Source of the DNA: Bacteriovoracaceae bacterium
Lineage (GTDB): Bacteria > Bdellovibrionota > Bacteriovoracia > Bacteriovoracales > Bacteriovoracaceae
Reading direction: 5' to 3'
Assembly: GCA_021732585.1 (NCBI GenBank)
Contig: JAKFUR010000031.1
Coordinates: 1 to 42,531 of the forward strand
Length of the DNA stretch: 42,531 nt
Part shown: positions 5,968-7,392 of the stretch, one piece after another
How positions within the stretch are numbered: position 1 is the stretch's first letter
How the letters are laid out: every line of letters begins with the position of its first letter
Translations under genes and position numbers: made by a program
Notes under the pieces: generated by a model
The model's database searches: none
Seen by the model: the letters and a program-made list of their open reading frames with translations, nothing else
What the model was told of the DNA's origin: nothing

Positions 5968-6001
5968 TTAGAATCTAGAATACGGAAGTTCTAGATTTTA
6001 A
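5968..6001 (+). terminator. AT-rich hairpin, possible terminator after the flgD operon
   Basis: TTAGAATCTAGAA / TTCTAGATTTTAA, 13-bp stem (one G-U), loop TACGGAAG. Confidence 0.45.
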
Positions 6002-6021
6002 CGGTAGTAACATTAACTTAT

Positions 6022-6106
6022 GTATTCAGAGTAAGGCTGGTCCTTCCAGGAAGCCCCTCTTCCAAGTCTGTAGTACTTGGGGATCTGAATACGCTGTCTA
6101 GGAGGG
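6022..6106 (+). promoter_or_regulatory. Structured flgE leader RNA candidate (three-way junction plus anti-SD)
   Basis: P1 GTATTCAGA(6022-6030)/TCTGAATAC(6084-6092); P2 CTGG(6037-6040)/CCAG(6046-6049); P3 CCAAGT(6062-6067)/ACTTGG(6075-6080); CCCTCTT(6055-6061) complementary to SD AGGAGGG(6100-6106). Confidence 0.5.
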
Positions 6107-6111
6107 ACTTG

Positions 6112-7392
6112 ATGAGTATTCTTTCGTCTTTTAACATCGGCACAACAGGTTTAAACGCTGCTGGCCAATCCATGAGCGTCATCGGTGATAACATCGCCAA
6201 CGCCGGGACTTTCGGCTTTAAATCTTCTCGTGCAGAATTCCAAGATCTCCTCTCAGCATCGTTAAAGGGTATCCACGGCGGTGACCAAATCGGTTCCGGT
6301 GTGAAACTCGCCCACGTTACTGGCCAGTTCAACCAAGGTACAATTCAGCGTACATCTAACATCACTGACCTTGCCATCAATGGTAACGGCTTCTTCATGG
6401 TAGATGCTCCATTCGGTAACGGTTACACCCGTGACGGCTCATTCCACTTCGACAAGGAAGGCCACATGGTCAACGGCGATGGCCACAAGATCAAAGGCTT
6501 CCAGCCAGACGACAAAGGCAACATGACGAACCAATTGTTGCCAATCAAATTGGGCAACACAACCATTCCAGCTACTCCTACTTCGACAGTGAAGATGTCG
6601 ATGAACTTGGATAGTCGCGAAGACATCAAAGTGTTCGATCCGAAGAACCCATTGAAGACGTCGAACTTCAGTAACTCAATCACTGTCTACGACAACATTG
6701 GTACAGCTCACTTGGTGACCATGTACTTCAACAAGACAGCTGACGGTCAGTGGGATTACCACGCGATGGTTGACGGTGCTGAAGCTCAAGGCGGAAAAGC
6801 TGGCGAGATGGTTGAGATGGCGTCAGGCTCTCTCAAATTCAACCAGAAAGGTGTGTTGGAAGAGGAAGTTGAAAAGAACAACTCATTCAACTTCAGCAAA
6901 GGCGCATTGCCGGGCCAGAAAGTTGCATTCGACTTCGGTCCAAGCGCGAAAGAAGGCGGCACTGGTCTTGAGGCTTCAACTCAGTTCGGTTCGAAGCACT
7001 CTGTGGCTCGCCACACTCAAGATGGTTCAAGCGCTGCAACTTTGGCATCTATGTCATTCAATGACGACGGTGTTCTTACTGCGGTTTACGACAACGGTCA
7101 GCAACGTGACTTGGCCCAGATTGCCATCGCGAAGTTCGAGAACAACGAAGGCCTCTTCAAAACAGGTAAGAACTTGTTCAAAGAGACTCGCAAATCTGGT
7201 CAAGCAACTGTTGGTAAGCCAGGTGCAGACGGTCGCGGCGAAGTGATGTCGAAGTCAATCGAAGCCTCTAACGTGGACATCGCGAAAGAGTTCATCGACT
7301 TGATGGCAGCACAGCGTAACTTCCAGGCCAACACCCGCACCATCACAACATCTGACCAGATGTTGCAAGAAGTGCTCAACATCAAGCGCTAG
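6112..7392 (+). CDS. flgE: Flagellar hook protein FlgE
   Basis: SILSSFNIGTTGLNAAGQSMSVIGDNIANAGTFGFKSSRAEFQDLL N-terminus and EASNVDIAKEFIDLMAAQRNFQANTRTITTSDQMLQEVLNIKR C-terminus; SD AGGAGGG 5 nt before ATG at 6112. Confidence 0.95.
   Translation: MSILSSFNIGTTGLNAAGQSMSVIGDNIANAGTFGFKSSRAEFQDLLSASLKGIHGGDQIGSGVKLAHVTGQFNQGTIQRTSNITDLAINGNGFFMVDAPFGNGYTRDGSFHFDKEGHMVNGDGHKIKGFQPDDKGNMTNQLLPIKLGNTTIPATPTSTVKMSMNLDSREDIKVFDPKNPLKTSNFSNSITVYDNIGTAHLVTMYFNKTADGQWDYHAMVDGAEAQGGKAGEMVEMASGSLKFNQKGVLEEEVEKNNSFNFSKGALPGQKVAFDFGPSAKEGGTGLEASTQFGSKHSVARHTQDGSSAATLASMSFNDDGVLTAVYDNGQQRDLAQIAIAKFENNEGLFKTGKNLFKETRKSGQATVGKPGADGRGEVMSKSIEASNVDIAKEFIDLMAAQRNFQANTRTITTSDQMLQEVLNIKR

Follow-up and report, generated by a model that had tools for sequence, protein, structure and literature searches.

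The leader of the hook protein gene flgE contains a cis-acting structured RNA which, on comparison of sequences, is real, undescribed and distributed at the level of the phylum, to which predatory bacteria belong. It probably acts on the Shine-Dalgarno sequence (SD), controlling the timing of hook protein synthesis. The element was found in a 42,531 nt stretch of DNA from a Bacteriovoracaceae bacterium (G000:C3, hereafter the window), where it is located on the forward strand and consists of a three-way junction (P1-P3) followed by a small hairpin holding the SD in its loop (P4). An initial annotation had placed an undescribed structured RNA with a three-way junction in this leader, and conservation and covariation together with the lack of an Rfam match bear this out. 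Its closing stem, second hairpin and coordinates stand, whereas the pairing of its first hairpin had to be replaced and the linker-SD pseudoknot, on which its riboswitch-like mechanism was built, is not conserved. Control at the SD, as it had proposed, is likely, the route being the P4 hairpin and not the linker.

The regulated gene flgE spans positions 6112-7392 (+; Pfam FlgE_D2, Flg_bbr_C, LlgE_F_G_D1 and Flg_bb_rod). The mechanical open reading frame begins at TTG 6109; the start of the relatives agrees with ATG 6112. According to Pfam the gene order is fliK, flgD, a small putative flagellar gene (PF12611, 5564-5959, +) and flgE, and the gap of ~150 bp between the latter two contains the leader RNA. 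Sequence and coordinates of this gap were found correct on re-reading. Directly 3’ of the PF12611 gene lies an inverted repeat (AATCTAGAA...TTCTAGATTTT, 5970-6000), which might serve as a weak terminator or else belong to an upstream stem. Two relatives of the same genus (L003, L004) show hairpins at this position too, with a differing sequence.

Relatives were collected via FlgE. For the window's family (Bacteriovoracaceae) 100 leaders were compared, 98 of them distinct. Read by eye, the leaders of relatives share the strikingly conserved block GGCUGGUCCUUUCCGGAAGCC, a hairpin with the loop CUGUAGU and then UCUAGGAGGGAC ahead of the start codon. The stems between these blocks vary in sequence while the pairing is kept. 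P1 closes the junction by its 5’ strand GUAUUCAGA (6022-6030, +) and its 3’ strand UCUGAAUAC (6084-6092, +). Six inner pairs were modelled, all of them with double changes and 87% of cells paired among the 98 distinct leaders; the stem annotated as GTATTCAGA/TCTGAATAC is thus real and covaries. P2 is the hairpin GGCU-GG-UCC-UUCCA-GGA-AGCC (6035-6055, +). It consists of an outer helix (6035-6038/6052-6055), an unpaired GG (6039-6040) and an inner helix (6041-6043/6049-6051). The outer helix shows double changes in 4/4 pairs, the inner UCC/GGA is almost invariant, and 99.6% of cells are paired. The motif GGUCC occurs in all 100 family leaders. The annotated first hairpin, CTGG/CCAG (6037-6049), was therefore mispaired, with GGCU pairing to AGCC and UCC to GGA instead. 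P3 (6060-6067/6075-6082, +) carries the conserved loop CUGUAGU (6068-6074) and covaries at eight of eight pairs, with 89% of cells paired in the same 98 leaders; it extends the hairpin originally seen at 6062-6067/6075-6080.

Taken together, P1-P2-P3 is paired in 92.0% of cells with double changes in 18 of 21 pairs (98 distinct leaders). The covariation score amounts to 0.670 in an alignment that was fitted to the structure and therefore leans towards it; shuffled data give 0.221 (0/500), and slid pairings do not exceed 0.191. RNAalifold with no structure imposed, applied to a plain MAFFT alignment of 9 leaders that was hand-trimmed to the P1 stems, returned the same P1, P2 and P3 with double changes in 14 of 19 pairs. 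The folding energy is unremarkable (z -0.35 for 6010-6130, z -1.87 for 6022-6092) and uninformative as a test. Hence chance is excluded by the comparative evidence, not by energy.

A covariance model built from four seeds matched at 26 of 30 flgE loci (E 1e-27 to 7e-5). After refinement, 113 of the 129 family genomes gave a match, a strong one in ~107, with essentially a single site in each genome, located immediately 5’ of flgE. A covariance model of the relatives' flgE upstream regions had been suggested with the initial annotation as a check, and the leaders show both conservation and covariation. The order to which the family belongs holds no genomes beyond those covered. A degenerate 21-base pattern searched against 84,980 species gave 37 matches. 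Two of them (L163, L189) lack the SD element and were set aside; the other 35 come from records named Bacteriovoracaceae, Halobacteriovorax or similar, or from MAGs with looser labels. All 34 true matches with readable downstream sequence lead straight into flgE, while L190 stops at a contig edge. Weak additional covariance matches (20-28 bits; L144-L152, L157) were rejected as plain, AT-rich hairpins, most of which match on both strands. Likewise, the weak matches in two genomes of another family (G188, G155) resemble terminators (GGCUUCC...GGAAGCC followed by a U-run) more than homologues.

Three genomes of the window's family (G005, G022 and G028; loci L013, L024 and L028) have flgE, CsrA and FliW and no element. 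There flgE lies close behind another gene or after a repeat-rich spacer, which suggests that the element was lost after rearrangement. In genome G016 (L019/L058) an element that looks decayed, its P3 loop being broken, is located roughly 300 nt 5’ of flgE; the genome retains the P4 hairpin GUCUAGGAGGGAC at flgE itself.

The Rfam scan gave nothing in the window at gathering threshold and, at the locus, no relevant match with E up to 10. In 20 relatives nothing relevant appeared up to E 1, and matches at lax thresholds were by chance. A resemblance to the c-di-GMP-I or purine riboswitches had already been denied by eye, in agreement with the scan. No paper on this RNA was found in the literature searched.

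P4 (GUCU-AGGAG-GGAC, 6096-6108, +), which exposes the SD in its loop, had gone unnoticed in the initial annotation and was found on comparison of the leaders. It is identical in 86 of the 98 distinct family leaders. Three leaders show independent compensatory changes in its stem, namely AUCC/GGAU (L113), GUUC/GAAC (L090) and GCCU/GGGC (L017). The linker between the junction and P4 has a median length of about 9 nt (range 3-66). A GGA within the loop of a short hairpin, as typical for CsrA sites, is present in P4, with stem and loop backed by covariation. The stricter C-ANGGAN-G hexaloop is not formed in the window's family, as the loop AGGAG comprises 5 nt and is closed by a U-G pair. Moreover the base two positions before GGA is U or C in 96/98 and A in only 2/98 family leaders; therefore the ANGGA of the best CsrA sites is missing here. 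One genome has a second flgE copy of 50% identity (L209, G013:C3) which is preceded by the SD hairpin UGUUC-AGGAG-GAACA with no P2/P3 upstream, indicating that P4 can occur alone. Similarly, P4 precedes flgE without P2/P3 in L240.

Two other classes of the phylum have divergent homologues 5’ of flgE. One is the class of G041, which we take to be Bdellovibrionia with its large Bdellovibrio-like genus. Its leaders show P2, with covarying outer and inner helices and an asymmetric loop of GGN against a purine, as well as P3 and P4. P2 and P4 were recovered by RNAalifold without any imposed structure, and the full structure exhibits double changes in 17 of 22 pairs (score 0.423 vs 0.201). A model of this form gave exactly one match each in 103 of the 144 genomes of the class, coinciding with the flgE coordinates wherever flgE was located. 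The same model matches 34 of 58 genomes of the third class (G057), again one each. All 12 leaders fetched from there precede flgE, and most have a P4 of the type GACGC-AAGGAG-GCGUC. On family leaders the Bdellovibrionia model scores weakly (best 18.1 bits, E 0.0045), so that homology of both forms rests on position, the P2 motif and P4. Of the upstream module, all three classes have the asymmetric P2 loop in common. Beyond the window's family, P1 was seen in L202 and L206 alone, and the P3 loop of the family is not kept in the other classes.

The homologous P4 hairpin of the other classes covaries as well, and the score for P4 stems is 0.480 vs 0.153. The strict C-ANGGAN-G hexaloop at the SD with a stem of at least 3 bp, i.e. 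the geometry of a CsrA site, is found in 55 of 70 Bdellovibrionia leaders. Among GGAG sites inside the fetched loci of this class, which served as control, it occurs at 1 of 644 other sites and at none of 68 SD-like sites. Two further traits were seen in this class. P3 loops such as those of L214, L218 and L243 follow the repeat pattern GANNGANUGA, unlike the CUGUAGU of the family, and may thereby mark a clade-specific partner. Immediately 3’ of P2, UCC or UUC is frequent (leaders L213-L280) and could form a kissing interaction with the GGA of the P4 loop.

CsrA/RsmE is known to target the SELEX consensus RUACARGGAUGU with an ANGGAN hexaloop (PMC7652899), and CsrA sites have been described as CANGGANG apical hexaloops (PMC4894983). 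In Campylobacter jejuni the flgE mRNA is enriched in CsrA co-immunoprecipitation, while several other CsrA-bound flagellar proteins were unchanged in a csrA deletion (PMC4894983). In the genome of the window csrA and fliW are adjacent (G000:C74), and CsrA and FliW are each found in 119 of 129 family genomes. Co-occurrence was dropped as a test, since both are near universal and also present in element-free genomes, and hence does not discriminate. Control by CsrA/FliW is the reading we favour, because the ANGGAN loops of P4 in Bdellovibrionia are a published CsrA target and because csrA and fliW are neighbours in the genome of the window and present in nearly all relatives. According to this reading, to which we give an even chance, the cis-acting leader (6022-6108) controls translation of flgE, with CsrA repressing at P4 and FliW relieving the repression. 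P4 would represent the output: a CsrA-type protein bound to the GGA of its loop would block the ribosome, and FliW, encoded beside csrA, would take CsrA off at the point when the flagellum can accept hook or filament subunits. Within the window's family P4 resembles a CsrA site in its design despite the missing A. As this A belongs to ANGGA, family P4 does not qualify as a CsrA site by the feature tested, and we infer the action of CsrA there. P2/P3 has no CsrA-like GGA loop, and CsrA alone thus does not explain the upstream module. This module, with its near-invariant nucleotides, may serve as a further docking site to which a protein or ligand attaches, be it the other face of the CsrA dimer or a different partner, flagellar or a small molecule. 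In the family only, the 5’ arm of P2 (GUCCUUUC) could in addition pair over 8 bp with GGAGGGAC, giving a competing state in which the SD is sequestered.

The SD could alternatively be masked by upstream pairing. In the initial annotation this role was assigned to a pseudoknot of the linker CCCTCTT (6055-6061) with the SD AGGAGGG (6100-6106). The 7 bp complementarity is present in the window, and the UCC/UUC after P2 in many Bdellovibrionia leaders could meet the GGA in a similar manner. Within the family, however, shuffling the linkers leaves their complementarity to the SD about as high (mean longest run 3.37 bp vs 3.10 bp when shuffled), 7 bp are reached in only 2 of 100 leaders and the mean predicted pairing across the family leaders is zero, which renders this pseudoknot very improbable. 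Another candidate, missed at first, is the 5’ arm of P2 (GUCCUUCC(A), 6040-6048, +) with its 8 bp complementarity to GGAGGGAC. A run of 8-9 bp is found in 85 of 100 family leaders compared to 5.3% of shuffles, and a pairing probability above 0.5 is predicted in 38 of 98. The arm and the SD are altered together only in L017. P2 arm pairing may represent a second state within the window's family; as a general mechanism it was rejected for the phylum, being absent in the other classes. It would also suit a small-molecule riboswitch, in which the aptamer is the three-way junction, including the invariant GGUCC/GGA and the CUGUAGU loop, and the ligand chooses whether the P2 arm finds its partner inside P2 or in the SD. 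The P1-P2-P3 leader is indeed a conserved, structured leader domain with covariation, as expected for a riboswitch, and its unpaired and loop nucleotides are near-invariant in the family. However, such an RNA usually conserves its ligand pocket best, whereas P1, the P3 loop and the P2:SD pairing are not kept in the other classes. Moreover the element serves a single gene with one copy per genome, and L090 loses the P2:SD pairing but keeps P4. We thus regard a riboswitch as unlikely.

The asymmetric P2 loop, present in all three classes as expected of a protein site, could also be bound by another RNA-binding protein, e.g. of flagellar export or assembly, exerting feedback on hook synthesis while P4 would set the basal rate only. 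That flgE is the sole gene with the element fits such a feedback. No candidate protein is named by this explanation, though, and P4 precedes flgE without P2/P3 in the two loci mentioned above, so that we consider it rather unlikely. Finally, the flgE message might be cut out of the transcript of the upstream operon, with the folded leader protecting or setting its 5’ end and thereby raising hook output. The hook protein has to be supplied in higher copy number than the products of the neighbouring genes, and the element lies in a short gap behind a flagellar gene in which no sigma-70 promoter-like site was found. A role in processing or stability would nevertheless leave the covarying SD hairpin with its ANGGAN loop in two other classes unexplained, and appears quite improbable to us.

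What is new is a statistically strong structured RNA family tied to the single gene flgE in three classes of one phylum. Control by CsrA/FliW as such is known, best for flagellin. With a conserved SD hairpin at flgE, this checkpoint would be shifted to hook assembly. In its widest form, the element would be a phylum-wide RNA class acting as a two-input gate for the hook, with CsrA/FliW at the SD hairpin and a ligand or assembly protein at P2/P3. We hold this to be doubtful; if true, a predator would restrict the making of hook subunits to the proper stage of its flagellar assembly or attack cycle. The attack phase of these bacteria depends on swimming, and an SD hairpin of this kind would make tractable mutants accessible in Bdellovibrio. 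A search for a new RNA-binding protein or ligand could start concretely from the upstream module with its near-invariant nucleotides.

Among known RNAs, the GUCCY-hairpin (PMC2864571) has a name that fits the GUCCU contained in P2. The merRNA of Bdellovibrio bacteriovorus (PMC3627812) is a structured RNA of the same phylum with a link to the attack phase. It is, however, an abundant separate c-di-GMP-riboswitch sRNA with no conserved gene downstream, whereas the flgE leader matches no c-di-GMP model. Translational riboswitches sequestering the SD (c-di-GMP-I/GEMM and others) likewise place a junction near the SD with a possible alternative SD pairing; in contrast, the flgE leader has no Rfam similarity to them and holds the SD in a local hairpin loop. 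The flg-Rhizobiales motif (RF01736; PMC2864571) is also a candidate cis-regulatory RNA named for flagellar genes, but is listed only under Rhizobiales and without Rfam match in the window or 20 relatives. The CsrA/FliW-controlled leaders of flaA in Campylobacter jejuni and hag in Bacillus subtilis resemble the flgE leader by the SD-overlapping GGA in a short hairpin loop, by a flagellar structural gene as target with csrA and fliW adjacent and, in the two sister classes, by the C-ANGGAN-G hexaloop. They differ in that the family loop AGGAG lacks the defining A and in that their target is flagellin instead of the hook gene. Moreover, the flgE leader adds a large, conserved upstream module in the form of a three-way junction or two hairpins.
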